Source: Gammaproteobacteria bacterium (lineage in GTDB: Bacteria > Pseudomonadota > Gammaproteobacteria > Burkholderiales > Rhodocyclaceae). Taken from it: a stretch of DNA of 64,000 bases. Under the pieces are notes generated by a model. The model did not search any database. It had not been told where the DNA came from and saw nothing but the letters and a program-made list of their open reading frames with translations. Position 1 is the stretch's first letter. The number at the start of each line of letters is the position of its first letter. Both the position numbers and the translations under genes were made by a program. Location: the NCBI GenBank assembly GCA_018824085.1, contig JAHJHI010000040.1, forward strand, positions 124,001 through 188,000, given 5' to 3'. This document shows positions 22,673 through 36,879 of this stretch, piece after piece.

Positions 22673-24430
22673 CTATCCGGCCGGGCGCTCGGCGGCGGGT
22701 GCAGGCGGGCATTTCAGGCCGACGCTGGTGATGTCGCCGGCAGCGTTCATGTCGCGCACGGTGAGCCAGACGGCGCCGATGGCGACGCGGTCGCCGACGA
22801 CGGCGCCTCGGCCCAGGCGTTTGGCCATCAGCGATCGCAGGTCGAGCGCGGCGTCTTCCTCCCGCAGCGAAAACCCGTAGTTCAGCGCGAGGTCGCCGGC
22901 CTGGCACGACGGGTCAACGACAAATTCGCCGAAGAAGCGCGCGTGCGCGCTCAGTTCGCCGATGACGGTGCCGAAGGCGCGGGCCACCGGCTCGGCGAGC
23001 GCCTGCGGCGCGGCGAACCACACGGAGTCGCCGGCGATCAGCCGGGTTGCCGGGTCCAGCCGAAGCAGCGCTTCATCACGGGTGACGGCGACGCAGCGCA
23101 CGTCACCGACCTCGCCGAAGCCGTCGGCGATTTCGTCCGGATGCGCCCCCTCCGCCGCCGAGCCTGCGCCGACCCGGTACTCCAGCAGTTCCAGTGCGAC
23201 ATCTCCGCCGACCCACACTTCACGGCGGTCGACCGGCTCGTCGCGCGGCGGCACTTCGACGCCGAACAGGCGTGCGGCCGATGCGACGGTGGCGCCCTGC
23301 ACCAGCAACGACAGCAGCACGACGGTGAAGGCCACGTCGAACAGCAGCAGCGAATCCGGCACGCCCATCATCACCGGCACGATGGCCAGCACGATGGGCA
23401 CGGCGCCGCGCAGGCCGACCCAGGAAATGTAGGCGATCTCGCGCGGCCGGTAGCGAAACGGCAGCAGGCCGGTCGCGACGGCGAACGGCCTTGCCACAAG
23501 CATCAGGAAGACGGCCATCGCCAGCGACGTGAATGCGTATTCGACCAGGTGAGACGGCGTCACCAGCAGACCCAGCACGACGAACATGCCTGCCTGCGCG
23601 AGCCAGGCCAGGCCGTCCATGACGCGCAGCACATGCTCGGTGGCGTGGCTGCGACGGTTGCCGATGATGAGTCCTGCGATGTAGATGGCGAGGAATCCGC
23701 TGCCGTCCAGCAGGTTGGTGGCGGAGAACACGAGCAGCCCGCCCGACACGATGAGCAGCGCGTAGAGCCCTTCGGCCAGCCGGAGCCGGCGCAGCAGGCG
23801 CGACAGCACCCAGCCGCCGCACACGCCGAACACCGCGCCCAGGCCGAGCTGGCTGACCAGCATCAGCACGAAACGCATCGGGCTGCCCTGTTCGGGATGG
23901 AGCAGCGTCTCCACCAGTATCGTGACCATGAGGATGGCCATCGGATCGTTGGCGCCGGATTCGATCTCGAGCGTGGCCTTGACCCGTTCGTTCAACCGCA
24001 CGCCGCTGTTGCGCAGCAGCGCGAACACTGCGGCGGCGTCGGTCGACCCGACGATGGCGCCGAGCAGCATGCCGAGGCGCCAGTCGACGTCGAGCAGCCA
24101 GGTGGCGAAGACGCCAAGCGGGATGGCGGTCGCAACGACGCCCCAGCTGGCGAGGACGGCGGCCGGCCTGAGCGCGACGCGGAAGGTTTCGACGCGCGTG
24201 CGCAGGCCGCCGTCGAGCAGGATGACGGCCAGCGCGAGCTGGCCGACCATCGTCGCCGTCGTGAAGTCGTCGAACAGGATGCCGCCCGGCCCGTCCTCGC
24301 CGGCCAGCATGCCGACGACAAGAAAGAGCAGCAGCAGCGGCAGTCCGAGCCGGGTCGACACGGTGCTGCCAAGCACGCTGACGAACAGCAGCAGCGCGGC
24401 GAGAAGAAAGTACCCGTTGATGGCGATCAT
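22673..24430 (-). CDS. cvrA: Potassium/proton antiporter CvrA (NhaP2-type)
   Basis: A 585-residue CPA1 antiporter. The first 400 residues form about twelve to thirteen transmembrane helices, including the GAIVGSTDAAAVFALLRNSG region and SGANDPMAILMV with the ion-binding Asn-Asp. The C-terminal cytoplasmic part includes a TrkA-C/CorC-like region (ECRCVAV-type segment GDVRCVAVTRDEALL and GDSVWFAAP). This layout matches CvrA/NhaP2, which exports K+ in exchange for protons under low osmolarity. Monocistronic; divergent from the symporter genes. Confidence 0.88.
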   Translation of the reverse strand: MIAINGYFLLAALLLFVSVLGSTVSTRLGLPLLLLFLVVGMLAGEDGPGGILFDDFTTATMVGQLALAVILLDGGLRTRVETFRVALRPAAVLASWGVVATAIPLGVFATWLLDVDWRLGMLLGAIVGSTDAAAVFALLRNSGVRLNERVKATLEIESGANDPMAILMVTILVETLLHPEQGSPMRFVLMLVSQLGLGAVFGVCGGWVLSRLLRRLRLAEGLYALLIVSGGLLVFSATNLLDGSGFLAIYIAGLIIGNRRSHATEHVLRVMDGLAWLAQAGMFVVLGLLVTPSHLVEYAFTSLAMAVFLMLVARPFAVATGLLPFRYRPREIAYISWVGLRGAVPIVLAIVPVMMGVPDSLLLFDVAFTVVLLSLLVQGATVASAARLFGVEVPPRDEPVDRREVWVGGDVALELLEYRVGAGSAAEGAHPDEIADGFGEVGDVRCVAVTRDEALLRLDPATRLIAGDSVWFAAPQALAEPVARAFGTVIGELSAHARFFGEFVVDPSCQAGDLALNYGFSLREEDAALDLRSLMAKRLGRGAVVGDRVAIGAVWLTVRDMNAAGDITSVGLKCPPAPAAERPAG

Positions 24431-24496
24431 GGTTCGAAACTATAACGACTGAATACTGCGGGACCGCGATTCTCCGCGATGAAGGGGGTTCAACGG

Positions 24497-24515
24497 CATG
24501 CTGCCGCGCAGCATG
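24497..24515. promoter_or_regulatory. Perfect inverted repeat in the cvrA / symporter intergenic region
   Basis: CATGCTGC (24497-24504), CGC, GCAGCATG (24508-24515): a perfect 8-bp inverted repeat with a 3-bp spacer, 67 bp upstream of cvrA and about 160 bp upstream of the symporter subunit gene. It could be an operator or a short hairpin. The remaining intergenic DNA (24431-24675) has a TAAAAT at 24568 but no well-spaced -35 partner. Confidence 0.4.
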
Positions 24516-24675
24516 AAGGACCGGCCGGCGGACGGTGCCGCATAAGCTTGCCGTAAGTTAGGCGTTCTAAAATCCGCGTCGCGGTACAAAGGGCACCCGA
24601 ATCTGACACCGCAGGCCGTGCGACATCTCTAGGTTGCAGGTTCAGGTAGTGCATAACATAGGAGGAGGAGCATTC

Positions 24676-24933
24676 ATGGAAGACAGTAATAGCCAAGGCT
24701 ACTGGAAGGCCACGCTGGCTCTGCTGACCCGGATCCTGATCATTTGGTTCGCGGTCTCGTTCGGCGCCGGCATTCTTTTCGCAGACGCCCTGAACGGCAT
24801 CCACTTGGGTGGTTATCCGCTCGGATTCTGGTTTGCCCAGCAAGGATCGATCTACATCTTCGTCGCGCTGATTTTCTACTACGCGAAGAAGATGGGGGAT
24901 ATCGACCGTCAGTTCGACGTTCACGAGGATTGA
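24676..24933 (+). CDS. DUF4212 small subunit of a sodium:solute symporter
   Basis: An 85-residue membrane protein with two transmembrane helices (about 17-38, LLTRILIIWFAVSFGAGILF; and about 50-72, FWFAQQGSIYIFVALIFYYA). The ATG at 24676 follows a strong GGAGGAGGAG ribosome site. The family is found directly upstream of VC_2705-type symporters and probably forms a complex with them, as DUF485 proteins do with ActP. The next gene starts 4 bp later. Confidence 0.9.
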   Translation: MEDSNSQGYWKATLALLTRILIIWFAVSFGAGILFADALNGIHLGGYPLGFWFAQQGSIYIFVALIFYYAKKMGDIDRQFDVHED

Positions 24934-24937
24934 TCAC

Positions 24938-26746
24938 ATGGAACTGCAAACAACCATCAATATTGTCGTCGGTCTGACCTTCGCGCTCTACATCGGCATC
25001 GCCATCTGGGCACGCGCGGGTTCCACCAGCGAGTTCTACGCGGCAGGCGGCCAGGTCCATCCGGTACTCAACGGCATGGCGACGGGCGCCGACTGGATGA
25101 GTGCGGCGTCGTTCATCTCGATGGCCGGCCTGATTTCCAACATGGGTTATGGCGGTGGCCTGTTCCTGATGGGCTGGACCGGCGGCTATGTGCTGCTCGC
25201 CATGCTGCTGGCCCCGTACCTGCGCAAGTTCGGCAAGTTCACGGTGCCGCAATTCATCGGTGACCGCTTCTACTCGAAGTCGGCCTCGACCGTGGCGGTG
25301 ATCTGCCTGCTGACCGCGTCCATCACCTACATCATCGGCCAGATGACCGGTGTCGGCGTGGCGTTCTCGCGCTTCCTGGGCGTGTCGAGCGAGACCGGCA
25401 TCTATGTCGGCATGGGCATCGTGTTCATGTACGCGGTGTTCGGCGGCATGAAGGGCATCACCTACACGCAGGTGGCACAGTATGTCGTGCTCATCCTGGC
25501 CTACACGATTCCGGCCATCTTCATCTCGCTGCAACTGACCGGCAACCCGATCCCGCAACTGGGCCTGGGTTCGAACCTCGTCGGTCACGACGCATCGCTG
25601 CTGTCGACGCTGGACCACATCGTGACCGACCTCGGTTTCGGCAAATACACGACGACCACGGCCGGCAGCACGCTGAACATGTTCGTCTACACGATGTCGC
25701 TGATGATCGGCACCGCCGGTCTGCCGCACGTGATCATGCGCTTCTTCACCGTTCCGACGGTCAAGGACGCACGTTCGTCGGCTGGCTGGGCGCTGGTGTT
25801 CATCGCCATTCTCTACACGACGGCACCTGCCGTCGCAGCGATGGCGAAGACCAACCTGATCCGCACCATCACGCCGGGCGTCGTCATGCAGGATGCCGAT
25901 CCGTTCGCCAAGGACGCGGCCATCCAGTACGAAGAGCGTCCGGACTGGATGAAGCGCTGGGAAAAGACCGGCCTGCTGAAGTTCGAGGACAAGAACGGTG
26001 ACGGCCGCATCCAGTACTACAACGACAAGACGGAAGATGCCGACGTCAAGGCCAAGGCGGAAGCCGCGGGCTGGAACGGCAACGAGCTGACTGTCAACGC
26101 CGACATCATCGTGCTGGCCAATCCGGAAATCGCGCTGCTGCCGAACTGGGTCATCGCGCTGGTGGCTGCCGGTGGTCTTGCCGCCGCGCTGTCGACGGCC
26201 GCGGGCCTGCTGATGGCGATCTCGTCCGCGGTGTCGCACGATCTGGTGAAGAACGTGTTCATGCCCAACATCAGCGAGAAGGGCGAGCTGATGGCCGGCA
26301 AGATTTCGATGGCTGTCGCGATCGTGATCTCCGGCTACCTGGGCCTGAATCCGCCGGGCTTCGCGGCCGGTACCGTGGCGCTGGCCTTCGGTATCGCGGC
26401 AAGTTCGCTGTTCCCCGCCATCATGATGGGCATCTTCAGCAAGAAGATGAACAAGGAAGGCGCGATGAGCGGCATGCTGGCCGGCCTGTTCGTGACGCTG
26501 TTCTACGTGTTTGCGCACAAGGGCCTGTTCTTCATCAAGGGCACCGAGTACCTCGACCTGATCGGCGGTCCGAACTCCTTCTTCGGCATCACGCCGGAAG
26601 CGTTCGGTGCCATCGGCGCCGTGGTGAACTTCACCGTCGCCTTCCTGGTGGACAAGGTGACCAAGGAACCGCCGGAGCACATCCAGCACATGGTCGAAGC
26701 CGTCCGCATCCCGCGCGGCTCGAAGGCTGTCGATGGCGCTCACTGA
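24938..26746 (+). CDS. Sodium:solute symporter, VC_2705 subfamily (ActP-related)
   Basis: A 602-residue SSS-family transporter with about 13 predicted transmembrane helices. Recognisable segments include SEFYAAGGQVHPVLNGMA, the GADWMSAASFISMAGL sodium-site region and FGKFTVPQFIGDRFYS. Compared with ActP it has an inserted hydrophilic loop (about residues 325-390) with an EF-hand-like sequence DKNGDGRI at 351-358. The substrate is probably a short organic acid (acetate, lactate or similar), but this is inferred from ActP. The strong downstream terminator ends the two-gene unit. Confidence 0.88.
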   Translation: MELQTTINIVVGLTFALYIGIAIWARAGSTSEFYAAGGQVHPVLNGMATGADWMSAASFISMAGLISNMGYGGGLFLMGWTGGYVLLAMLLAPYLRKFGKFTVPQFIGDRFYSKSASTVAVICLLTASITYIIGQMTGVGVAFSRFLGVSSETGIYVGMGIVFMYAVFGGMKGITYTQVAQYVVLILAYTIPAIFISLQLTGNPIPQLGLGSNLVGHDASLLSTLDHIVTDLGFGKYTTTTAGSTLNMFVYTMSLMIGTAGLPHVIMRFFTVPTVKDARSSAGWALVFIAILYTTAPAVAAMAKTNLIRTITPGVVMQDADPFAKDAAIQYEERPDWMKRWEKTGLLKFEDKNGDGRIQYYNDKTEDADVKAKAEAAGWNGNELTVNADIIVLANPEIALLPNWVIALVAAGGLAAALSTAAGLLMAISSAVSHDLVKNVFMPNISEKGELMAGKISMAVAIVISGYLGLNPPGFAAGTVALAFGIAASSLFPAIMMGIFSKKMNKEGAMSGMLAGLFVTLFYVFAHKGLFFIKGTEYLDLIGGPNSFFGITPEAFGAIGAVVNFTVAFLVDKVTKEPPEHIQHMVEAVRIPRGSKAVDGAH

Positions 26747-26806
26747 GCGATCGTCGTAACCTGAGCGCGGGCACACCGGCCCGCGCACCGGACTGATGTG
26801 TGTGCG

Positions 26807-26839
26807 AGGCCCCGCCGGCCATGCTGGCGGGGCCTTTTT
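26807..26839 (+). terminator. Rho-independent terminator after the symporter operon
   Basis: AGGCCCCGCC (26807-26816) pairs with GGCGGGGCCT (26826-26835) around a 9-nt loop and is followed by a run of five T residues. It lies 60 bp after the symporter stop and separates it from the sensor operon that begins at 26900. Confidence 0.9.
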
Positions 26840-26899
26840 CCTGACATGCCGGCAAACATGCGGTAGCGTTGCCGGCGCACCTTCGCGCAGGAGCTGAAC

Positions 26900-27253
26900 A
26901 TGGTTTTCGACATCAGCGTCGCAACGACGTGGATACTTTTCATCGCCCTGTTTCCGATCGCCTTCTTCTGGCTCAGGCGCGCCTGGCGCATCCTGGTCAG
27001 GCGGGATTTCTCCGAAGTGGCGCTCAAGCGTGGCGAACCGCCGGCCGACCCGGAACGCTGGGCGCCGCATGAACTCATCATCAACGGCGTTGCGGGGGCA
27101 GTCGTGGTGTGCGTCATCGTCGGCGTGGTCGCCGGCTGGATGCGCTACGAGCAGTGGTCGGCCGTCGCCGGCAGCACCATCTGGTGCAAGTTCTTCGCGA
27201 GCTTTGCACTGAGCCGCCATGCGCACCTGCGCAGCGGCAAGAAACCCGCTTGA
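26900..27253 (+). CDS. Two-TM membrane protein of unknown function
   Basis: A 117-residue protein with an N-terminal hydrophobic helix (about 8-25, TTWILFIALFPIAFFWL), a basic cytoplasmic-type segment (RRAWRILVRRDFSEVALKRGE), and a second helix (about 62-82, GVAGAVVVCVIVGVVAG). I do not recognise a named family. An AGGAGC site precedes the ATG. Its position, after the symporter terminator and 13 bp before another small membrane protein gene leading into the sensor kinase, suggests it is the first gene of the sensor operon. Confidence 0.7.
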   Translation: MVFDISVATTWILFIALFPIAFFWLRRAWRILVRRDFSEVALKRGEPPADPERWAPHELIINGVAGAVVVCVIVGVVAGWMRYEQWSAVAGSTIWCKFFASFALSRHAHLRSGKKPA

Positions 27254-27266
27254 ACGGGCGCCGTCG

Positions 27267-27464
27267 ATGACGGCACATCTTCACCACCAGCGACTGGCGG
27301 CCCTGTTTGCCGCCGCGCTGCTGCTGTTCAACTTTCCGCTGCTCGCGCTGTGGGACCGCGAACTCACGGTGTTCGGCGTGCCGCTGTTCCCGGCAGCGCT
27401 GTTCTTCGTGTGGGGCGTGCTGATCGCCCTGCTCGCGTGGTCCATGGAGCGCACGCAGCGCTGA
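27267..27464 (+). CDS. Small two-TM membrane protein upstream of the sensor kinase
   Basis: A 65-residue protein with two hydrophobic helices (about 9-27, LAALFAAALLLFNFPLLALW; and about 34-59, FGVPLFPAALFFVWGVLIAL). The ATG at 27267 was used; the longer frame runs into the preceding gene. It ends 6 bp before the symporter-like kinase gene. Small proteins of this sort accompany many SSS transporters (DUF3311-like), so it may be an accessory subunit of the SSS domain of the kinase. The family assignment is tentative. Confidence 0.65.
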   Translation: MTAHLHHQRLAALFAAALLLFNFPLLALWDRELTVFGVPLFPAALFFVWGVLIALLAWSMERTQR

Positions 27465-27470
27465 CCTCAA

Positions 27471-30239
27471 ATGCTATCGGCCCCGCTGCTCGTCGGCGCC
27501 TCGTTCGCCTATCTGCTGATGCTGTTCGCGGTCGCCTGGTATGGCGATCGCCGCGCGCGCCAGGGTCGCTCCATCATCGGCAACGCCTGGGTCTACGCGC
27601 TGTCGATGGCCGTCTACTGCACGGCGTGGACCTACTTCGGCAGCGTGGGACGGGCGTCGACGTCCGGCGTGTGGTTCCTGCCCATCTATCTGGGCCCGAC
27701 GCTGGCGATGATCGTGGCATGGATGGTGGTGCGCAAGATGATCCGCATCACCCGCACCTACCGCCTGACCTCGATCGCCGACTTCATCGCCAGCCGCTAC
27801 GGCAAGAGCCCGACGCTGGCCGGCATGGTGACGCTGATCACCGTCGTCGGCATCGTTCCCTACATCGCACTGCAGCTCAAGGCGGTCGCCAGCGGTTACG
27901 CGGTGCTGACCACGCTGCCCGGCGAGGCGGTCGCCGCAGCGGGCCCCTGGTGGGGCGACAGCACGCTCTACGTCGCGCTGACACTGGCCGGCTTCGCCAT
28001 GGTGTTCGGCACGCGCCATCTCGACACGACGGAACGGCACGAGGGCATGGTGGCCGCGATCGCGTTCGAGTCCGTGGTCAAGCTGGTCGCCTTCCTGTCG
28101 GTCGGCCTGTTCGTCAGCTATTCGATGTTCGATGGCCTGGGCGACCTGTTCGCACGCGCGCTCGCCCATCCGGAGCTGCGGCCGCTGCTCGCGCTGGAAC
28201 AGGGCCGGCCGTTCACCTATGAACAGTGGTTCGCGCTGACGGTGCTGTCGATGATGTCGGTGCTCTTCCTGCCGCGCCAGTTCCAGGTGATGGTGGTCGA
28301 GAACGTCGACGAGCGGCACCTGCGCCGCGCAGCCTGGGTGTTTCCGCTCTACCTGCTGCTGATCAACCTGTTCGTGCTGCCGATCGCGCTCGGCGGATTG
28401 CTCCACTTCGGGCCCGGCAACACCGACGCAGAAGCATTCGTGCTGTCGCTGCCGCTCGCCAACGGCCAGCCGGCGCTCGCGCTGTTCGCATTCATCGGCG
28501 GGCTGTCGGCGGCAACCGGCATGGTCATCGTTGAAACCATCGCCGTGTCGACGATGGTCTGCAACGATCTGGTCATGCCGCTGCTGCTTCGCACGCGGCG
28601 CTTCGGCGCGCGCGCCGGCGGCGATCTGACGCGGCTGCTGCTGCTGATCCGGCGCACCGCCATCGTCGGCATCATGTTTCTCGGCTATGCGTACTTCCAC
28701 ATCGCCGGCGAAGCCTACGCACTGGTCAGCATCGGCCTGATCAGCTTCGCGGCGATCACGCAGTTCGCGCCGGCCGCCCTCGGCGGCATGTACTGGAAGG
28801 GCGGCACGCGCGAAGGCGCGATGGCCGGGCTGGCCGCCGGCTTCGCGCTGTGGGCGTGGACGCTGATGCTGCCGTCGATCGCCAAGTCCGGCTGGATGGA
28901 CACCGGTTTCATCACGCATGGTCCGTGGGGCACCACCTTGCTGCGGCCGGAACAGCTGTTCGGCCTGACCGGGCTGGACAACCTGACGCACTCGCTGTTC
29001 TGGAGCCTGCTGGCGAACATCACCGCCTACGTGGCCATTTCACTGTGGCGCACGCCGTCGGCGCGCGAAATCAGCCAGGCGCTGCTGTTCGTCGACGTGT
29101 TCGAACGCACCGCGAGCAGCGGCCCTGTGTTCTGGCGCGGCCGCGCCCAGGTGTCGGACCTGCAGCCGCTGATCGCGCGCTTTCTCGGCGAGGCGCGCTC
29201 GCAATCGCTGTTCGAGGCCTACGCGCGCGATGCGGGCGTCGCGCGGATCGACCAGATAAAGCCTGACGCGCAGCTGGTGCAGTTCGCCGAAACGCAGCTT
29301 GCCGGCGCCATCGGCAGCGCGTCGGCGCGCGTCATGGTGGCGTCCGTCGTGGAAGAGGAAGCGCTCGGCCTGGACGACGTCATGCGCATACTCGAAGAGG
29401 CATCGCAGCTGCGCGCCTACTCGCACGCGCTGGAAGACAAGTCGCGCTCGCTCGAACGCGCCACCGCCGAGCTGCGCGCCGCCAACGACCAGCTCAAGAG
29501 CCTGGACCGCCTGAAGGACGACTTCATGTCCTCGGTCACGCACGAACTGCGTACGCCGCTCACGTCGATCCGCGCGCTGTCCGAGCTGATGGTCGACGAC
29601 CCGAAGATGGACGGCCAACAGCGCCAGCACTTCCTCGGCATCATCGTCAGCGAGACCGAACGCCTGAGCCGGCTCGTGAATCAGGTGCTGGACATGGCGA
29701 AGATAGAGTCCGGCCAGGCCGAATGGCATAACAGCGAGGTCGATCTGCGCGCCCTCATCGTGAAGGCGCTCGACACCACGCGGGAAATGTTCCGCGAACG
29801 CGGCGCGCGCGTCGAACTGCACGCGCCGGAACACTTGCCGGCGCTGCGCGCCGACCCGGACCGGCTCACCCAGGTCATGCTCAACCTGCTGGCAAACGCC
29901 GGCAAGTTCGTGCCGCGCGGCACCGGTCATGTCGAGGTGCGCGTGCGCAGCGACGCGCGCGGCGTCACCGTCGATGTGCATGACAATGGGCCGGGCGTGC
30001 CGGCGGAGGAACGCGCCCTCGTTTTCGAGCGCTTCCGTCAGGGCGGGCACGGCGTGAACCGCCCGGCCGGCACCGGTCTGGGCCTGCCGATCAGCCGCCA
30101 GATCATCGAGCACTTCGGCGGCCGCATGTGGCTGGAACCTGATCCAGGGCAAGGCGCATGCTTCAGCTTTAATCTACCGTGGAACACACAGAAAAATCCG
30201 CCGGCCCCGGCCGAAGCAGGAGGAGGAGACACCCCGTGA
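27471..30239 (+). CDS. Hybrid SSS-transporter / sensor histidine kinase (CbrA-like)
   Basis: A 922-residue protein. Residues 1 to about 500 are a sodium:solute symporter domain with about 13 helices. A linker follows with a coiled coil (ALEDKSRSLERATAELRAAN, about 645-675). The kinase core has the H-box SSVTHELRTPLTSIR with phosphorylatable His at 691, an N-box MLNLLANAGKFVP, a G1 box VHDNGPGVP and a G2 box GTGLGLPISRQII. CbrA, PutP-like and related kinases use the transporter domain to sense or move a solute and signal to a partner regulator. Its stop overlaps the response-regulator GTG start by 4 nt, so the two are a cognate pair. Confidence 0.92.
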   Translation: MLSAPLLVGASFAYLLMLFAVAWYGDRRARQGRSIIGNAWVYALSMAVYCTAWTYFGSVGRASTSGVWFLPIYLGPTLAMIVAWMVVRKMIRITRTYRLTSIADFIASRYGKSPTLAGMVTLITVVGIVPYIALQLKAVASGYAVLTTLPGEAVAAAGPWWGDSTLYVALTLAGFAMVFGTRHLDTTERHEGMVAAIAFESVVKLVAFLSVGLFVSYSMFDGLGDLFARALAHPELRPLLALEQGRPFTYEQWFALTVLSMMSVLFLPRQFQVMVVENVDERHLRRAAWVFPLYLLLINLFVLPIALGGLLHFGPGNTDAEAFVLSLPLANGQPALALFAFIGGLSAATGMVIVETIAVSTMVCNDLVMPLLLRTRRFGARAGGDLTRLLLLIRRTAIVGIMFLGYAYFHIAGEAYALVSIGLISFAAITQFAPAALGGMYWKGGTREGAMAGLAAGFALWAWTLMLPSIAKSGWMDTGFITHGPWGTTLLRPEQLFGLTGLDNLTHSLFWSLLANITAYVAISLWRTPSAREISQALLFVDVFERTASSGPVFWRGRAQVSDLQPLIARFLGEARSQSLFEAYARDAGVARIDQIKPDAQLVQFAETQLAGAIGSASARVMVASVVEEEALGLDDVMRILEEASQLRAYSHALEDKSRSLERATAELRAANDQLKSLDRLKDDFMSSVTHELRTPLTSIRALSELMVDDPKMDGQQRQHFLGIIVSETERLSRLVNQVLDMAKIESGQAEWHNSEVDLRALIVKALDTTREMFRERGARVELHAPEHLPALRADPDRLTQVMLNLLANAGKFVPRGTGHVEVRVRSDARGVTVDVHDNGPGVPAEERALVFERFRQGGHGVNRPAGTGLGLPISRQIIEHFGGRMWLEPDPGQGACFSFNLPWNTQKNPPAPAEAGGGDTP

Positions 30240-30610
30240 CGTACAAGATACTGATCGCCGATGACGAGCCGAACATCCTGATTTCACTCGAATTTCTGAT
30301 GAAGCGCGAAGGGTTCGACGTCCACATCGCGCGCGACGGCATCGAAGCGCTGGACGCCATCACCGGACAGCGGCCCGACCTCGTGCTGCTCGACGTGATG
30401 ATGCCGGGCAAGACCGGTTTCGAGGTCTGCCAGGAGGTGCGCGCGCAGGACGCGCTGAAGGACGTGCGCATCCTGATGCTGACGGCCAAAGGACGCGACA
30501 CCGACATCGCGAAGGGGCTTGCGCTCGGTGCCGACGCCTACATGACCAAGCCCTTCTCCACGCGCGAACTGGTGCAGAAGGTGCGCGCCATGCTGGAGCC
30601 GGCCGCTTGA
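30236..30610 (+). CDS. Single-domain response regulator (CheY-like)
   Basis: A 124-residue receiver domain with no output domain. The start is a GTG overlapping the kinase stop, preceded by AGGAGGAGGAG. Conserved residues: acidic pair D9-D10, phospho-acceptor D53 (LVLLDVMMPG), T83 (MLTAKG) and K105 (MTKPFS). With no DNA-binding domain it must act by protein contact. The neighbouring pseudokinase-exonuclease, whose TTG start overlaps this stop (TTGA), is the natural candidate partner. Confidence 0.93.
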   Translation: MTYKILIADDEPNILISLEFLMKREGFDVHIARDGIEALDAITGQRPDLVLLDVMMPGKTGFEVCQEVRAQDALKDVRILMLTAKGRDTDIAKGLALGADAYMTKPFSTRELVQKVRAMLEPAA

Positions 30611-32811
30611 ATCCGCGCCTGCGCCCGGACCGCCGCGTGCTGCTCGGGCTCGCGGCGCTGGCGCTGCTGATGGCGGCCTGGGCACTGGTCACCGGCGCGC
30701 TCGTGATGTCGTCGCTGGAGCCGGCCGAGCGCGCCGCCGTGGAGGCGCTGCTCGGCGCGCGGCTGCCGGTCGCCGGCATGACACTGGTGTTCGCGCTGCT
30801 GATCGCGCTGGTGGCGTTCAACGCGCTGTACCGCCACTTCATCGTCGCACCGGCGCGCCTGCTGGAAGAGGCGCGCATCCAGCTCGGCACCGACACCGAG
30901 CGCCCGCTGACCGTCCAGGGCTCGCCGGAGAACCGGGCGCTGGCCGACGTCATCACCGGCTTCGTCGAACAGCGCGCGCGCCTGCGCGCCGACATCGCGC
31001 AGCAGGTGGCGCTGGCCAGCCGCAACATCGAACAGGAGCGCAGCCGGCTCGCCGCGCTCATGTCCGAACTCACGCAAAGCGTCGTGGTGTGCAATCTCGA
31101 CGGCCGCGTGCTGCTCTACAACAACCGCGCGCGCCTGCAGTTCCGCGCGCTGTCCGACGCGCCCGCGGTGGCCTCCGGCGCCGAACTGATCGGGCTCGGC
31201 CGCTCCATCTACACGGTGTTCGACCGCAAGCTGGTGGCGCACGCGCTGGAAAACATCCGCCAGCGCATGCAGCGCGGCGTGTCCAGCCCGTCCGCACAGT
31301 TCGTCACCACGACGCGCGCCGGCCAGCTGCTGCGCGCGCAGATGACGCCGGTGCGCGGCGTGGCCGCCGGCACGGCCGACAACGACCCGGACGCCGGGGC
31401 CGGCAGCATCAGCGGCTTCGTGCTGATGCTGGACAACATCACGCGCGACTTCGAGGAGGAGTCCGCGCGCGACAAGCTGCTGCTGCGCCTGACCGAAGGC
31501 AGCCGCGCGTCGCTGGCGAACATGCAGGCGGCGATCGACATGCTGGCCTACCCGGACATCGAGGCCGCGATGCGCGAGCGCTTCCACGGCGTCATCCGCG
31601 ACGAGGTCGTCGCCCTGAGCAAGCGCGTGTGCGACACCGCGCAGGACGCAACCCGCGGGCTCAAGGCGCGCTGGCCGCTGGAGGACATGCTGGGCGCCGA
31701 CCTGGTATCCGCCGCGCTGCGCCGCATCGAGGCGCTCGGCACGCCACGCGCGCACGCGGACGAGGTGGACGCCTCGCTGTGGCTCAAGGTGGACAGCTTT
31801 TCACTGCTGCAGGCACTGACCTGCCTCGCCGCCCGCCTGGCCGACGAATACGACATCCGTTCGGTGCAGATCCGCCTCGGTCCGGCACCGCAGGGCACGC
31901 GCGCCCATCTCGACCTGATCTGGCAAGGCCAGACGATGAGCACGGAAACGGTCATGAACTGGCAGATGGACGCGATGCAGATCGGTGCCGAGCGCTCGCC
32001 GCTGTCGGTGCGCGACGTGGTCGAGCGGCACGGCGGCGAATTCTGGCTGGAGCGCGAACGCGTGCGCCATCGCGCCTTCTTCCGCTTCCTGCTGCCGCTG
32101 GCAAGCGAACGCGAACAGCTCGACAGCGCCACCTTCGTGCCGCAGGGCAGCCGCCCGGAGTACTACGACTTCGACCTGTTCCAGACCACCGAATCGAGCC
32201 GCGGACTGGCCGACCGGCGCCTGACCGAACTGGCCTACACGGTGTTCGACACCGAAACCACCGGCCTCAATCCGGCCGAGGGCGACGAGATCATCCAGAT
32301 CGGCGCCGCGCGCATCGTCAATGGCAAGCTGCTGCGCCAGGAAAGTTTCGAACAGCTGGTCGACCCGCAGCGCTCGATTCCGGCGGCGTCCATTCCGATC
32401 CACGGCATCACGCCGGACCAGGTGCGCGGACAGCCGACGATAGACACCGTGCTGCCGGCCTTTCACGCATTCGCACAGGACACCGTGCTGGTCGCGCACA
32501 ACGCGGCGTTCGACATGCGCTTCCTGCAGCTCAAGGAGAAGCGCACCGGCATCCGCTTCGAACAGCCGGTGCTCGACACGCTGCTGCTGTCCGCGCTGGT
32601 ACACCCCAATCAGGAATCGCACCGACTGGAGGCGATCGCCGAACGGTTCAACGTGCCGGTCATCGGCCGTCACACCGCGCTCGGCGACGCCATCGTCACC
32701 GCCGACGTCTTCCTCAAGCTCATTCCGCTGCTGGCCGAACGCGGCATCCACACACTGGGCGAGGCGCGCGAAGCGGCGCAGCAGACCTACTACGCGCGCA
32801 TCCGGTACTGA
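30607..32811 (+). CDS. Membrane pseudo-histidine kinase fused to a DEDDh 3'-5' exonuclease (DnaQ-like)
   Basis: A 734-residue fusion. Two N-terminal helices (about 11-35 and 50-75) flank a short periplasmic loop; a HAMP-like linker and a PAS domain follow (about 140-280, VVVCNLDGRVLLYNNRARLQ). Next is a kinase-like region where the H-box position reads GSRASLANMQAAID (near 299) with no His, and an ATPase-like end with HGGEFWLER (His 475) but no glycine boxes. The C-terminal exonuclease has D548 and E550 (VFDTETTGL), D636 (HNAAFD), H689 and D694 (RHTALGD), a complete DEDDh set. The start is TTG, overlapping the response regulator stop. Confidence 0.88.
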   Translation: MNPRLRPDRRVLLGLAALALLMAAWALVTGALVMSSLEPAERAAVEALLGARLPVAGMTLVFALLIALVAFNALYRHFIVAPARLLEEARIQLGTDTERPLTVQGSPENRALADVITGFVEQRARLRADIAQQVALASRNIEQERSRLAALMSELTQSVVVCNLDGRVLLYNNRARLQFRALSDAPAVASGAELIGLGRSIYTVFDRKLVAHALENIRQRMQRGVSSPSAQFVTTTRAGQLLRAQMTPVRGVAAGTADNDPDAGAGSISGFVLMLDNITRDFEEESARDKLLLRLTEGSRASLANMQAAIDMLAYPDIEAAMRERFHGVIRDEVVALSKRVCDTAQDATRGLKARWPLEDMLGADLVSAALRRIEALGTPRAHADEVDASLWLKVDSFSLLQALTCLAARLADEYDIRSVQIRLGPAPQGTRAHLDLIWQGQTMSTETVMNWQMDAMQIGAERSPLSVRDVVERHGGEFWLERERVRHRAFFRFLLPLASEREQLDSATFVPQGSRPEYYDFDLFQTTESSRGLADRRLTELAYTVFDTETTGLNPAEGDEIIQIGAARIVNGKLLRQESFEQLVDPQRSIPAASIPIHGITPDQVRGQPTIDTVLPAFHAFAQDTVLVAHNAAFDMRFLQLKEKRTGIRFEQPVLDTLLLSALVHPNQESHRLEAIAERFNVPVIGRHTALGDAIVTADVFLKLIPLLAERGIHTLGEAREAAQQTYYARIRY

Positions 32812-32817
32812 CGCCGC

Positions 32818-33591
32818 TCACAGCGGCGTGACGGCGTCACCCGGGCGGATTTCCCCGTCTTCGAGCAGCTGCAGATAGACGCCCAGTTCCCGGTGGCCGT
32901 AGCGCTCCATCATCGTCTGCGGAAGCGCGAGATCGCGTTTCGCGGTGACCGGATTGACGTTGGTCGCAGCGCAGCGCGGCGTGCGCATGACGACGCGCGC
33001 ACGCACGCACCCGATGCGCACGTCGCGGTCGAGCCACGAGGCCTCTTCCCAGGGCACCACGCCATCGATGTAGATGTTCGCGCGAAAGCGCAGCGGGTCG
33101 ATGTCCACGCCCCACGTGGCGCCAATCTCGCGCACCGTGGCCAGATTGATCAGCGACACGGCATTCATCATCGCGTGCGACAGCACGCTGACATCGGTGA
33201 AGCGGAATCCTTCGCCGGCGACGAAGCGCGGCGGCCCCTCGAAGCGGGCACCGACGTGGCGTGCGATGAAGCTTTCCAGCTCGGCGCGGCCCTGCGCGTC
33301 ATCGACGTCGATGCGCAGCGTCCGGCCGTCCGGCGCGCTCACGTGCAGGCAACCCGTTTCATCGTCGAAGCGGGTGGCCAGCGACGCGAGCGCGGCGTGG
33401 TCCATCAGCGCGATGAAGTCGGTTTTCGGGCGCGGGCGATAGGCGGCGGTGTCGAAGGTCCAGCTGCCATTGGTCAGCGCATACGCGCGGTCCACCGGAA
33501 AGCCCTCACCGGCGCGCAGCGCGACCTGCGCCAGCGGTTCGGGCGACAGCCCCTTGACCGGGTATCGGTATAGATTCCGTATCGTGCTCAT
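32818..33591 (-). CDS. MOSC-domain protein (mARC/YcbX-like)
   Basis: A 257-residue protein. The second in-frame ATG was used because family similarity starts at MSTIRNLYRYPVKGLSPEPL. An MOSC N-terminal beta-barrel is followed by the MOSC domain with RFRANIYIDG and the molybdenum-cofactor Cys in MRTPRCAATNVNP. Members carry the molybdenum cofactor and reduce N-hydroxylated compounds or transfer sulfur. It lies on the minus strand, convergent with the exonuclease gene and between it and the CBS-DUF294 gene. Confidence 0.85.
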   Translation of the reverse strand: MSTIRNLYRYPVKGLSPEPLAQVALRAGEGFPVDRAYALTNGSWTFDTAAYRPRPKTDFIALMDHAALASLATRFDDETGCLHVSAPDGRTLRIDVDDAQGRAELESFIARHVGARFEGPPRFVAGEGFRFTDVSVLSHAMMNAVSLINLATVREIGATWGVDIDPLRFRANIYIDGVVPWEEASWLDRDVRIGCVRARVVMRTPRCAATNVNPVTAKRDLALPQTMMERYGHRELGVYLQLLEDGEIRPGDAVTPL

Positions 33592-33674
33592 GGCGGCTCC
33601 GCGACTCAGGGACAGGCGCGATGCTGACGCGCCCGCCGGCACGCCGCAATAAGTCGTTTACCGGAGGCGACGCG

Positions 33675-35522
33675 TCAGAATCGTCCTGCCTGGTAGCGCT
33701 GGCCGAGCACGCTCTGCAGCGTCTGCACCACGGTGAAGGCGTCCTTGAGCTGGCTGCGCTCGAAGTTGGACAGTTCGTCCGGGCGCAGGAAGTTGTCGGC
33801 GTCCTGCCCGGCGCCGAGCTGGCGTGCCTGATGCTGGATGCGCAGCGCGGCGATGAATTCGAGCGCGTCGCGCAGGTCGCGTGCGCTCTGTTCGCTGATC
33901 TCCTTGCTGTCTGCGGCGCTGGCCAGACGGTCGTGCGTGTTCACTGCGTCGTGCCCGCCGGCCAGCGCATAGACGCGCGCCAGGTCGACGATGGGCACGA
34001 TGCCGTTGTGCTTCAGGTCGATGCGGCCGCGGTGCTCGCCCGAACGTATCGTCGACAGCGTGCGGAACAGGCCGAGCGGCGGCTGGTGGCTCAGCGCATT
34101 GCTCACCATGTAGGCGAGGAAGATGCGGTTGTCGCGCGTGCGCGCCAGCACGTCGCGCCGCAGGTCTTCGAGCAGCGAGGTCTTGCCGTAGATGGCGCGC
34201 AGATCGAAGAACACGCAGGTGAGCATCAACGCCTTGGGTTCGGGCTCCTCAGTCCAGTTGCGGAAGTACTGCGCCCAGCGGCTGCGCGGCTGGCGCCACT
34301 GGTCGGTCATCGCCATCATGTCGCCCGGGCAGTGAATGTAGCCGCAGGCGTCGAGCCCGTCGCAGACGAGTGTGGACAGCGACTTGAAGTACTCGCCGTG
34401 GCGCGCGGCGTCATAGCTGTCGTCGAGGATGAGGCAGTTGTCCTGGTCGGACTTGGCCGTCTGTTCGCTGCGCGCCTGCGAACCGGCGGCCACCCAGACG
34501 TAGTCGATCGGCGCCGGGCCGAAGCGCGCTTCCGCCAGCTGCAGCAGACGGCAGGTGATGGCGTCGGTGATCGCCGTGATGATGTGGCCGGTGCTGTAGG
34601 CGCTGGCGCCCGCCGCCGCGAGGTTCTGCTGCAGCGCGCGCACCCGCGCGGCACCTGCGGCCAGCCCGTCCACCGTGTCCTGCTTGTAGATGTCGCCGGC
34701 CAGATAGACGGCCGACGTGCTGTGCTGTTCCGTCAGGTCGGTGGCGGTGATCATGCCGACGACGGTGTCCCCGTCCATGACCGGCACGTGGTGGATGTTG
34801 TGGCGGGCCATCAGCAGCAGCGCATCGAATGCCGGCTTGCGCACGTCCATCGTCAGCGGCGCGACGGTGGCGATGTCGATGACCGGCCGGCTGATGTCGA
34901 TGCCGCGTGCCAGCGCGCGGTTGCGCAGGTCGCGATCGGTCACCAGCCCGAACAGGCGGCCGCTTTCCACGATGAGCACGGACGACACGCGCTGCTCGCA
35001 CATCTTCTCCGCCGCGTCGCGAATGGACGTGGACGGCGCCAGCGTGATCGGCGCGCGGCGGATCAGCGCGCGCACCGGCATCGTCATCAGGTTCAGGTGC
35101 GGGTCGGTCGTGCGTGCGCCGGCGGCGGCGCGGGTGCCGGCCGGCGTGACGAAGCAGCCGAGTGGCGGGTAGGCCGCGCACAGCGCGTCCACATCCGTGC
35201 TGCCGAAGCGCAGCAGATGCACGTCGTCATCGTCGGCGCGCACGGCCCACGGGTCGAGCGCGCGCGCCGGGCAGCCATAGCCGAACAGTTCGCCGGCGCA
35301 CAGCACCACCGAAGCGCCGCTGTCGGCATCGCGCAGCGACACGCGACCGCTGACGACGAGATACAGCGCGTCGGACGCCACCTGCAGGTCACCGCGCGGT
35401 ACCTGCAGCAGCTGCGCGGCCGCCGCGCAGGCGGCACGCGCTTCGGCGTCGAGCAGCCCGAATGCGCGCTGCGCGGACAGCGCGTCAAGCGTGGCCTGGT
35501 CGATCGGACGGGACGGGGTCAT
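33675..35522 (-). CDS. cNMP-binding / CBS-pair / DUF294 nucleotidyltransferase-like protein
   Basis: A 615-residue cytoplasmic protein. Order: cyclic-nucleotide-binding-like domain (about 15-125), two CBS motifs (about 145-265, with VSSVLIVESGRLFGLVTDRD and HHVPVMDGDTVVGMITATD), DUF294 putative nucleotidyltransferase with AAGSQARSEQ (346-354) and DQDN (359-362), and the DUF294 C-terminal domain. The GS-x-R and DQDN pattern keeps the metal-binding residues of GlnE/GlnD-like nucleotidyltransferases. The start at 35522 follows GGAGACACC. In other proteobacteria this family neighbours VC_2705-type symporters and a DnaQ-like exonuclease, as it does here. Confidence 0.87.
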   Translation of the reverse strand: MTPSRPIDQATLDALSAQRAFGLLDAEARAACAAAAQLLQVPRGDLQVASDALYLVVSGRVSLRDADSGASVVLCAGELFGYGCPARALDPWAVRADDDDVHLLRFGSTDVDALCAAYPPLGCFVTPAGTRAAAGARTTDPHLNLMTMPVRALIRRAPITLAPSTSIRDAAEKMCEQRVSSVLIVESGRLFGLVTDRDLRNRALARGIDISRPVIDIATVAPLTMDVRKPAFDALLLMARHNIHHVPVMDGDTVVGMITATDLTEQHSTSAVYLAGDIYKQDTVDGLAAGAARVRALQQNLAAAGASAYSTGHIITAITDAITCRLLQLAEARFGPAPIDYVWVAAGSQARSEQTAKSDQDNCLILDDSYDAARHGEYFKSLSTLVCDGLDACGYIHCPGDMMAMTDQWRQPRSRWAQYFRNWTEEPEPKALMLTCVFFDLRAIYGKTSLLEDLRRDVLARTRDNRIFLAYMVSNALSHQPPLGLFRTLSTIRSGEHRGRIDLKHNGIVPIVDLARVYALAGGHDAVNTHDRLASAADSKEISEQSARDLRDALEFIAALRIQHQARQLGAGQDADNFLRPDELSNFERSQLKDAFTVVQTLQSVLGQRYQAGRF

Positions 35523-35611
35523 GGTGTCTCCTGGTGCGTGGGAAAGGCGTCCGGCCATGCGGATGATGACGCGTAACAGTGCCGCGGGGCCAGCCCGGGA
35601 TGTCCGGAAAA

Positions 35612-35648
35612 CAATATATTGATGAACATTATATTCATTGATATATTG
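35612..35648. promoter_or_regulatory. Operator of the BigR/SqrR-like repressor
   Basis: CAATATATTGATGAA (35612-35626) and TTCATTGATATATTG (35634-35648) form a 15-bp inverted repeat with two mismatches around CATTATA. The same DNA holds a direct repeat ATATATTGAT at 35614 and 35641, a 27-bp period. It lies 22 bp upstream of the ArsR-family start codon in otherwise GC-rich sequence and probably overlaps its promoter. Confidence 0.75.
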
Positions 35649-35670
35649 ATCGGATGCTACGGAGCCGCCC

Positions 35671-36000
35671 ATGAACATCGCCACACGGGAATTCACGGAC
35701 TTGCGCGCCGCCGCACAACGCGCTTGCACGCTGCTGAAAGCGATGGCGCACGAGGACAGGCTGGTGCTGCTGTGCCAGCTGTCGCAGGGCGAACACACGG
35801 TCGGCGAGCTCGAAGCACGGCTCGGCATCGTCCAGCCTACGCTGTCGCAGCAACTTGGCGTGCTGCGGCGCGAAGGGCTGGTGATCACGCGCCGCGACGG
35901 CAAGCACATCCACTACCGCATCGCCAGCGACGACGCGCTGGCCATCATGCAGACGCTGTACCAGCGCTTCTGCGGCGAAGGAAACGGAGAACCGGAATGA
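35671..36000 (+). CDS. ArsR-family transcriptional repressor, BigR/SqrR-like
   Basis: A 109-residue winged-helix repressor. The recognition helix reads GIVQPTLSQQLGVLRREG and the wing TRRDGKHIHYRI. Cysteines are at 19, 35 and 101. C35 (LLCQL) and C101 (RFCGE) are 66 residues apart, the same spacing as the two redox cysteines of SqrR (41 and 107), which form a polysulfide bridge. Metal-binding ArsR motifs (CVC) are absent. Its stop overlaps the start of the first half-size YeeE/YedE gene by 4 nt, so it regulates its own operon, presumably in response to sulfide or persulfide. Confidence 0.88.
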   Translation: MNIATREFTDLRAAAQRACTLLKAMAHEDRLVLLCQLSQGEHTVGELEARLGIVQPTLSQQLGVLRREGLVITRRDGKHIHYRIASDDALAIMQTLYQRFCGEGNGEPE

Positions 36001-36431
36001 ATATCGCATGGGACGCCTTCACCCCCTGGACCTCGCTCGGCGGCGGTGCGCTGATCGGGCTGGCGGCCGCGCTGCTGATACTGGGCAGCGGCCGCATCGC
36101 CGGCATCAGCGGCATCGTCGGCGGCCTGCTCAGGCCTTCCGGCGGCGACCGGAGCTGGCGCATCGCCTTCCTCGCCGGGCTCATCGGGGCGCCGCTCCTG
36201 TGGCAGCTGTTCGCCGCGCTGCCGCCGGCGCAGGTCGACGCCGGCAACGCCATGCTGATCGCTGCCGGCCTGCTGGTCGGCATCGGCACCCGCTACGGTT
36301 CGGGCTGCACCAGTGGCCATGGCGTGTGCGGACTGTCGCGGCTGTCGCCGCGCTCGCTGGCCGCGACGCTGGCTTTCATGGGCGCCGGCTTCGCCACCGT
36401 GTACGTCGTGCGCCACCTGCTCGGGAGCTGA
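35997..36431 (+). CDS. Half-size YeeE/YedE family transporter protein
   Basis: A 144-residue protein with four hydrophobic segments. The Cys-containing motif [21 protein letters not shown] (about 98-118) is the family sulfur-handling signature. It covers only half of a full YeeE/YedE transporter; the following gene supplies the other half. In bacteria with BigR such pairs (PmpA/PmpB-like) are controlled by sulfide-responsive repressors and are thought to move reduced sulfur. Translation is coupled to the repressor gene. Confidence 0.88.
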
Positions 36432-36432
36432 C

Positions 36433-36879
36433 ATGCAAGCCTTCATCGCACTCGTCTCCGGCCTGATCTTCGGCATCGGCCTGCTGCTGTCCGGCATGGC
36501 CAATCCGGCCAAGGTCATCGGCTTCCTCGACCTGTCCGGCGCGTGGGACCCCTCACTCGCGCTGGTCATGGCCGGCGCGATCGCCGTCGCCTTCCCCGCG
36601 TTCACGTGGGCAAGACGCTGCACGCGGGCCTGGTCGGGCTGCGCGCTGCAACTGCCGACGGCGAAACACATCGATCGTCCGCTGCTGCTCGGCAGTCTTG
36701 CCTTCGGCGCCGGCTGGGGCCTGGCCGGGTATTGCCCGGGGCCCGCGCTGGTGTCGCTCGGCACCGGCTCGCAACCGGCCGTCGTGTTCATCCTTGCCAT
36801 GCTCGCCGGCATGGGCGCGCATGCGCTGTTGAACCGCCCGGGGAAGGCGCTCAGGCAGCCGCCGCCGGCGAAGGGGTAA
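36433..36879 (+). CDS. DUF6691-type half of the YeeE/YedE transporter
   Basis: A 148-residue protein with about four hydrophobic segments. Motifs [21 protein letters not shown] and [19 protein letters not shown] (Cys near 116) define the second half of the split YeeE/YedE pair. It starts 1 bp after the first half. Its 3' end overlaps the convergent nitronate monooxygenase gene by 29 nt. Confidence 0.87.

Follow-up and report, generated by a model that had tools for sequence, protein, structure and literature searches.

A lone response regulator and a membrane pseudokinase-exonuclease as the candidate output of a symporter-like histidine kinase in a Rhodocyclaceae locus

In Pseudomonas, an operon for a CBS-domain protein and an RNase_T exonuclease lies beside actP/yjcH in strain PAO1, under the symporter-like histidine kinase (HK) of the MxtR/ErdR (CrbS/CrbR) system (PMC9927547). 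The cited sections of that study describe P. putida pp_0354 (CBS-DUF294) and pp_0353 (exonuclease) as one operon targeted by MxtR/ErdR; the exonuclease mutant, like the actP-I mutant, showed a defect on pyruvate that was absent on 20 mM acetate, the DUF294 mutant was normal, and mRNA decay was suggested as the role of the exonuclease. For P. fluorescens, the sections cited here describe the DUF294 gene pflu5625 as CrbR-controlled and its mutant as without a phenotype (PMC5715377), and in Pseudomonas CrbR/ErdR acts at separate promoters to control acs, actP and the DUF294 gene (PMC5715377, PMC9927547). The response regulator (RR) of CrbS/CrbR is a LuxR-type transcription factor, as is that of RpuS/RpuR of Sinorhizobium, where a symporter-like HK is linked to a monocarboxylate symporter and the output is transcriptional (cited passages of PMC9100948). 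Here we describe a locus in a 64,000-nucleotide stretch of a Rhodocyclaceae genome (the window; contig JAHJHI010000040.1, positions 124,001 to 188,000) in which a symporter-like HK is followed by an RR that is a lone receiver domain, with no LuxR-type DNA-binding part, and by a membrane exonuclease that bears its own pseudokinase.

A preliminary description of the locus had not made this link, which looks to us the most informative one: the RR and the pseudokinase-exonuclease fusion would be the output of the HK. We propose, with a probability of roughly 45%, that a DUF294-dependent nucleotidylation affects solute uptake and is undone by an exonuclease under the control of HK, RR and pseudokinase. 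The signaling wiring is fairly well supported; the docking, the direction of control, the nucleotidylation chemistry and the symporter as its target are what we infer.

The linkage between exonuclease and DUF294 genes was surveyed in 199 genomes of the same phylum, each at least 90% complete. From 127 DUF294_C matches, 108 full-length ones in 75 genomes were kept and 19 weak GlnD-like rows (≤27.7 bits) were dropped; since 3 of those kept share a locus with another match, the survey comprised 104 fetched loci plus the window, or 105 loci in 75 genomes, viewed over 6.5-20 kb. An exonuclease match (E ≤ 1e-5) was present in 96 of the 105 loci, an SSS transporter in 66 and DUF4212 in 35. The source genome (4.28 Mb) encodes one such HK at E ≤ 1e-40, two full DUF294_C proteins and 5 RNase_T genes, the last giving a chance expectation of ~2.3% per 20 kb, or ~2.5 of 105 loci. 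The linkage is far above chance, and the neighborhood of symporter, DUF294 and exonuclease genes that the preliminary description had noted for gammaproteobacteria such as Pseudomonas is real and does occur in Pseudomonas.

Of the 109 scored DUF294 genes, 66 were immediately followed by the exonuclease gene on their own strand (≤300 bp), 3 were fused to it, 31 had it otherwise arranged within the surveyed interval and 9 lacked it; three of the loci without it (L087, L114 and L119) are near contig ends. The two activities are predicted within a single protein in three genomes, and the fusion that was scanned (L135) carries RNase_T, CBS, DUF294 and DUF294_C in one open reading frame (ORF) of 819 residues. 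DUF4212 matches fell within 12 kb of DUF294 in 38 of 58 cases, and 46 of the 58 were in DUF294-bearing genomes. The best 32 exonuclease matches among those listed were all within 6 kb of DUF294 (32/32), a cut that was set after the list had been inspected. A second phylum was represented by 118 genomes around a Desulfosarcina record, with 60 DUF294 genes kept after weak rows (≤30 bits) had been dropped. Of the 28 exonuclease matches in its DUF294-bearing genomes, 16 lay no more than 6 kb from a DUF294 gene, and 22 of the 60 DUF294 genes had an exonuclease at that distance; the linkage there is weaker, yet far above chance.

These loci take three forms: DUF4212-symporter-DUF294-exonuclease, with an exonuclease of ~230 residues; DUF294-exonuclease only; and symporter, DUF294, RR and a pseudokinase-exonuclease of ~700 residues, often with a symporter-like HK. 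The window locus is of the third form with a VC_2705 transporter, and related loci hold acetate-CoA ligase and ActP/DUF485. De novo clustering of neighbors, which also yielded many antisense artefact ORFs, gave an acetate-CoA ligase cluster in 29 loci and a DUF485 cluster in 27, with one representative scanned for each (L037 and L047).

The fusion is assigned to the DEDDh (DnaQ-like) exonucleases by its RNase_T fold and its D, E, D, H and D residues. In an alignment of 107 fusions the first D and the E are kept in 107/107, and the remaining D, H and D in 106/106 filled rows; the domain is closest in sequence to the PolC and Pol III epsilon exonucleases. N-terminal to it are predicted membrane helices and a PAS/kinase-like region, in which a Pfam scan recognized no kinase domain. 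In the AlphaFold2 model (predicted local distance difference test score, pLDDT, 78.7; predicted template modeling score 0.38), two long helices at the N terminus are followed by a PAS-like domain, then by dimerization/phosphotransfer (DHp) helices and a kinase ATPase-like domain, with the exonuclease last. Foldseek matched this model to WalK and other sensor kinases (E 4e-18, with poor global superposition) and also to PolC/epsilon (DnaQ-type) exonucleases.

The kinase part is predicted from its residues to be catalytically dead. At the phosphoacceptor column, filled in 97 of 107 rows, we found E in 77, D in 7, Q and A in 3 each, K in 2, M, P, T, L and R in 1 each, and H in none; 10 rows carry a His 3 residues upstream of the column, out of register with the R.P motif. 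Two more residues, the N-box Asn (ATP binding) and an Asp in the box after it, are likewise substituted in the survey rows shown, as judged by eye. A match over fusion residues 5-734 in Piscinibacter aquaticus (L163, 8494-12163; tblastn) has an ORF of only 291 residues, that is, an interrupted one, and was excluded from the counts. Two fusions of the second phylum (L252 and L253; ORFs of 1134 and 913 residues) have extra N-terminal sensor sequence, which suggests extracytoplasmic input to the exonuclease.

The preliminary description had called the HK an SSS-domain kinase. Its N-terminal half has no Pfam SSF match even at E ≤ 5, but a profile comparison of ten HK N-termini with ten symporters gave a probability of 95.6 over 181 columns; on this basis the N-terminal half is SSS transporter-like in the manner of the SLC5/STAC histidine kinases (CrbS, CbrA and RpuS). 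A Pfam scan at E ≤ 5 showed no STAC match, although whether Pfam includes a STAC model was not checked. The residues required of a working kinase are intact in this HK. Scored with a profile of the fusion DHp, exonuclease-linked symporter-like HKs reached a median of 46.5 bits (n = 67) and five HKs of a single family 33.6, as compared with 1.8 for CrbS-length hybrids (n = 18) and 8.0 for other HKs (n = 27, some of them contig-end pieces). Such kinship fits a duplicated kinase that kept its RR-docking face, and also the formation of a heterodimer with the HK.

All of the RRs of this kind that were compared (22/22) retain the residues D, D, D, T and K. Of the full-size fusions in the survey, 21 of 23 have the RR gene as their direct upstream neighbor (exceptions L109 and L074), but none of the 4 shorter fusions (465-476 residues) that lack the kinase part does. 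In a named set of the 80 best loci, mostly from Betaproteobacteria, 72 had room upstream, untruncated, and an RR was there in 58 (53 by ORF and 5 further by tblastn). A whole-genome search for the remaining 14 found an RR ortholog of 62-72% identity elsewhere in 8, in 8/8 directly upstream of a second fusion copy; in the other 6 it found no ortholog at E ≤ 1e-25. In the second phylum the RR was upstream of the fusion in 4/4 loci, with a 4-base overlap in all three for which the two gene ends could be placed clearly; one HK adjoining such a locus has no symporter part.

Loss of the RR and loss of the DHp tend to coincide. The comparison covered 97 of the 107 fusions, 10 truncated or interrupted ones being left out, and its RR-less set comprised 12 fusions (6 from the named set and 6 survey rows) from genomes without a close RR. 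Of these 12, 10 have a deleted or broken DHp, as against 2 of the 85 with an RR (0/8 with the RR elsewhere, 2/77 with it adjacent), an association with a Fisher p of 3e-10 when kinship is ignored. L109 has lost both RR and DHp, and its fusion still has the PAS, some of the kinase ATPase domain and the exonuclease; three loci of the same genus retain both RR and DHp. Co-loss in several genomes suggests that the DHp is where the RR would act.

The DUF294 protein has DUF294 and DUF294_C domains and is assigned to the GlnE/GlnD-like nucleotidyltransferases, with an intact active site; the motif GSxxR[ED]..DQD occurs in 108/108 DUF294 proteins. All genes named in the preliminary description were confirmed by domain scans, but its cNMP-CBS-nucleotidyltransferase label holds for the CBS, DUF294 and DUF294_C parts and less well for the cyclic-nucleotide domain, which scores 19.9 and 22.0 bits, under the cut-off of 27.5. 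A sequence search against solved structures matched the CBS domains only and left the nucleotidyltransferase part unmatched. The best PDB matches of the structure model (pLDDT 90.5) are to GlnE, 1v4a (E 8e-9) and 3k7d (both GlnE halves), with DrrA 6yx5 ranked lower and many CBS proteins; this likeness to protein adenylyltransferases favors protein modification, as far as a predicted fold can. A survey of HEPN domains groups DUF294_C with GlnD/GlnE, in its cited part (PMC3710099). Most DUF4212 proteins from genomes without DUF294 (L232-L251, compared with DUF4212 near DUF294) lack the acidic C-terminal tail, an observation confounded by kinship.

The preliminary description had suggested a second-messenger or RNA-turnover circuit as a possibility; both are still conceivable, but the adenylyltransferase folds point to protein modification instead. 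If RNA turnover were the function, the exonuclease would trim or degrade transcripts for uptake and central carbon metabolism, the DUF294 protein would tail RNA 3' ends, and HK and RR would tune mRNA decay. The sequence proximity of the exonuclease domain to PolC and Pol III epsilon, the authors' own speculation in the cited text of PMC9927547 and a weak, below-cut-off match of another DUF294 protein of the source genome (L131) to the C-terminal domain of the CCA-adding enzyme (12 bits, E 0.17) speak for this. But the 50 fold matches listed for the DUF294 model, led by GlnE and CBS proteins, include no poly(A) or CCA enzyme, and Pfam scans found no RNA-binding domain among the window proteins; we consider this account rather improbable. 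We give similarly little credence to a circuit in which the product of DUF294 is a small (oligo)nucleotide inhibitor of uptake, broken down by the exonuclease. Its genetics would be identical to those of a protein tag written and erased, and the two enzymes are conserved jointly and at times fused, but the fold neighbors are protein adenylyltransferases, and no messenger receptor turned up, no search for one having been made.

Our proposal is of a transporter-linked signaling module with two arms. In the first, the symporter-like HK would phosphorylate the single-domain RR, which, having no DNA-binding part, would dock on the DHp helices of the membrane exonuclease and switch it, much as the pseudokinase DivL reads DivK~P. 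The likeness to DivK-DivL of Caulobacter is that a kinase that has lost catalysis reads a single-domain RR (PMC4211667, cited part); the window protein appears to share the dead kinase and the RR partner, but its RR binding is putative and its pseudokinase is joined to an exonuclease. In the second arm, the DUF294 nucleotidyltransferase, under its CBS pair reporting adenine-nucleotide status, would nucleotidylate a target, and the DEDDh exonuclease, being a phosphodiesterase, would strip the nucleotide off again. GlnE, the top fold match, shares the GS...D.D active-site pattern; the DUF294 protein differs in having one nucleotidyltransferase domain behind CBS, with tag removal presumably by the separate DEDDh enzyme. 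That a nuclease can undo protein AMPylation has a precedent in RNase Z, reported as a deAMPylase of SelO substrates (PMC12663964, cited part); RNase Z is a metallo-endonuclease, unlike the DnaQ-fold exonuclease of the window, whose activity is predicted. The target would likely be the neighboring monocarboxylate-type symporter or some controller of it. Were the tag inhibitory, the eraser would be needed for uptake and the writer dispensable, and the asymmetry of the P. putida mutants is as expected of such a tag, with DUF294 as its writer and the exonuclease as its eraser. This is our reinterpretation and not, in the sections cited, that of the authors of PMC9927547.

Several observations weigh against this proposal. 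To our knowledge no DEDDh enzyme acts on a nucleotidylated protein, and no candidate tag site stands out in an alignment of 55 DUF4212 rows. The P. putida transporter is ActP and not VC_2705, and the exonuclease whose mutant was described is a P. putida gene that may differ in architecture. L131, the second DUF294 copy of the source genome, has a symporter and no exonuclease match nearby, and 38 of the 60 DUF294 genes of the second phylum have no nearby exonuclease at E ≤ 1e-12. A tree-aware count gave 7 DHp state changes and only 3 supported independent pairs, without significance, the RR going the same way in 1.8 and the opposite way in 0.0 on average; we dropped joint loss of RR and DHp as a statistically proven result, the events in the tree-aware test being too few. 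L186 and L207 retain the DHp without an RR, and in L123 and L126, which do have an RR, the DHp has lost 6 residues. In 5 of the 12 RR-less genomes, all of one family, a single-domain RR of 40-45% identity lies beside a symporter-like HK elsewhere, so that 'RR-less' there means without a close ortholog.

HK and RR are missing together in 7 of the 12, and the same pattern would arise if the pseudokinase paired with the HK itself, the RR serving another output. RetS reportedly pairs with GacS in this way, and the fusion DHp is most like that of exonuclease-linked HKs. This too seems a poor bet, as the conserved direct upstream neighbor of the fusion, usually overlapping it, is the RR, which has no other visible output domain, and L134 and L136 retain all three of HK, RR and fusion while the DHp is divergent. 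Least probable, and by our estimate very much so, is that the genes share a regulon for growth on acetate and pyruvate without acting on each other: the separate CrbR/ErdR promoters of acs, actP and the DUF294 gene in Pseudomonas speak for this (PMC5715377 and PMC9927547, cited sections), but it hardly accounts for gene fusions, overlapping genes and loss of the DHp with the RR.

Table 1. Features of the locus, in window coordinates.
Feature	Coordinates	Strand	Evidence and remarks
DUF4212, symporter small subunit	24676-24933	+	PF13937 114.3 bits (cut-off 30); TIGR03647 110.3 bits
VC_2705 family sodium/solute symporter, large subunit	24938-26746	+	TIGR03648 822.1 bits (cut-off 320.75)
Two small predicted membrane ORFs	26900-27464		Between symporter and HK; Pfam matches all sub-threshold; not in the preliminary description
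Symporter-like sensor HK, kinase motifs present	27471-30239	+	HisKA, HATPase_c; SSS-related N-terminal half
Single-domain RR, GTG start	30236-30610	+	PF00072 (one receiver domain, 124 residues)
Membrane pseudokinase-exonuclease, TTG start	30607-32811	+	PF00929; AlphaFold2 model; Foldseek matches
Degenerate DHp helices, residues 287-349, Glu replacing phosphoacceptor His	31465-31653	+	Alignment of 107 fusions
DEDDh exonuclease domain (RNase_T), residues 546-702, catalytic residues intact	32242-32712	+	PF00929 131 bits; alignment
MOSC gene	32818-33642	-	Between exonuclease and DUF294 genes; not in the preliminary description
CBS-DUF294-DUF294_C protein: GlnE-like nucleotidyltransferase, CBS pair, degenerate cyclic-nucleotide domain	33675-35540	-	DUF294 151.6, DUF294_C 164.6 bits

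The large symporter subunit, placed in the VC_2705 family by its TIGR03648 score and its adjoining DUF4212 partner, scores 151.7 against the ActP cut-off of 1099 and so falls far under it. The HK/RR and RR/exonuclease junctions each have a 4-base overlap, and AGGAGGAG, which we take to be a Shine-Dalgarno-like motif, precedes the RR start. One of the two small ORFs upstream of the HK is reminiscent of the small ORF upstream of cbrA. The MOSC gene was rejected as an operon member, a MOSC match being present in 1 of 105 loci, that of the window itself. Genes for a putative ArsR-like regulator and putative YeeE-like membrane proteins lie past DUF294 (35671-36000), and Rfam gave nothing at gathering score within 24000-36500. 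Elsewhere in the source genome (G000:C44:36502-56402), L131 forms a second DUF4212-symporter-DUF294 cluster, whose DUF294 protein has 493 residues with CBS.

The preliminary description had held that the conservation of a nuclease and a nucleotidyltransferase beside a transporter has no accepted explanation. The pair is not unstudied, having been published as MxtR/ErdR targets with single deletions on acetate and pyruvate (PMC9927547) and with a pflu5625 mutant (PMC5715377), in the sections cited. Among titles and abstract openings in one open-access library, we found no study that describes an RR-pseudokinase-exonuclease system or treats DUF294 and exonuclease as a writer-eraser pair; the gene pair and its Pseudomonas regulation are already in print, and the RR-pseudokinase signaling arm was not found there.

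The proposal offers a testable account of why a nuclease and a nucleotidyltransferase travel with acetate and pyruvate transporters in many bacteria, and it would place an exonuclease on the short list of non-transcriptional two-component outputs. Its broadest form, in which reversible protein nucleotidylation gates monocarboxylate uptake through a CBS-controlled DUF294 writer and a DEDDh eraser, the eraser being in this lineage a two-component output by way of a DivL-like pseudokinase, is one that we hold to be unlikely. If it is true, the exonuclease would be a new kind of two-component output and would define a new class of de-nucleotidylase. The published puzzle of an exonuclease mutant that is sick on pyruvate and a DUF294 mutant that is normal becomes a question of epistasis.

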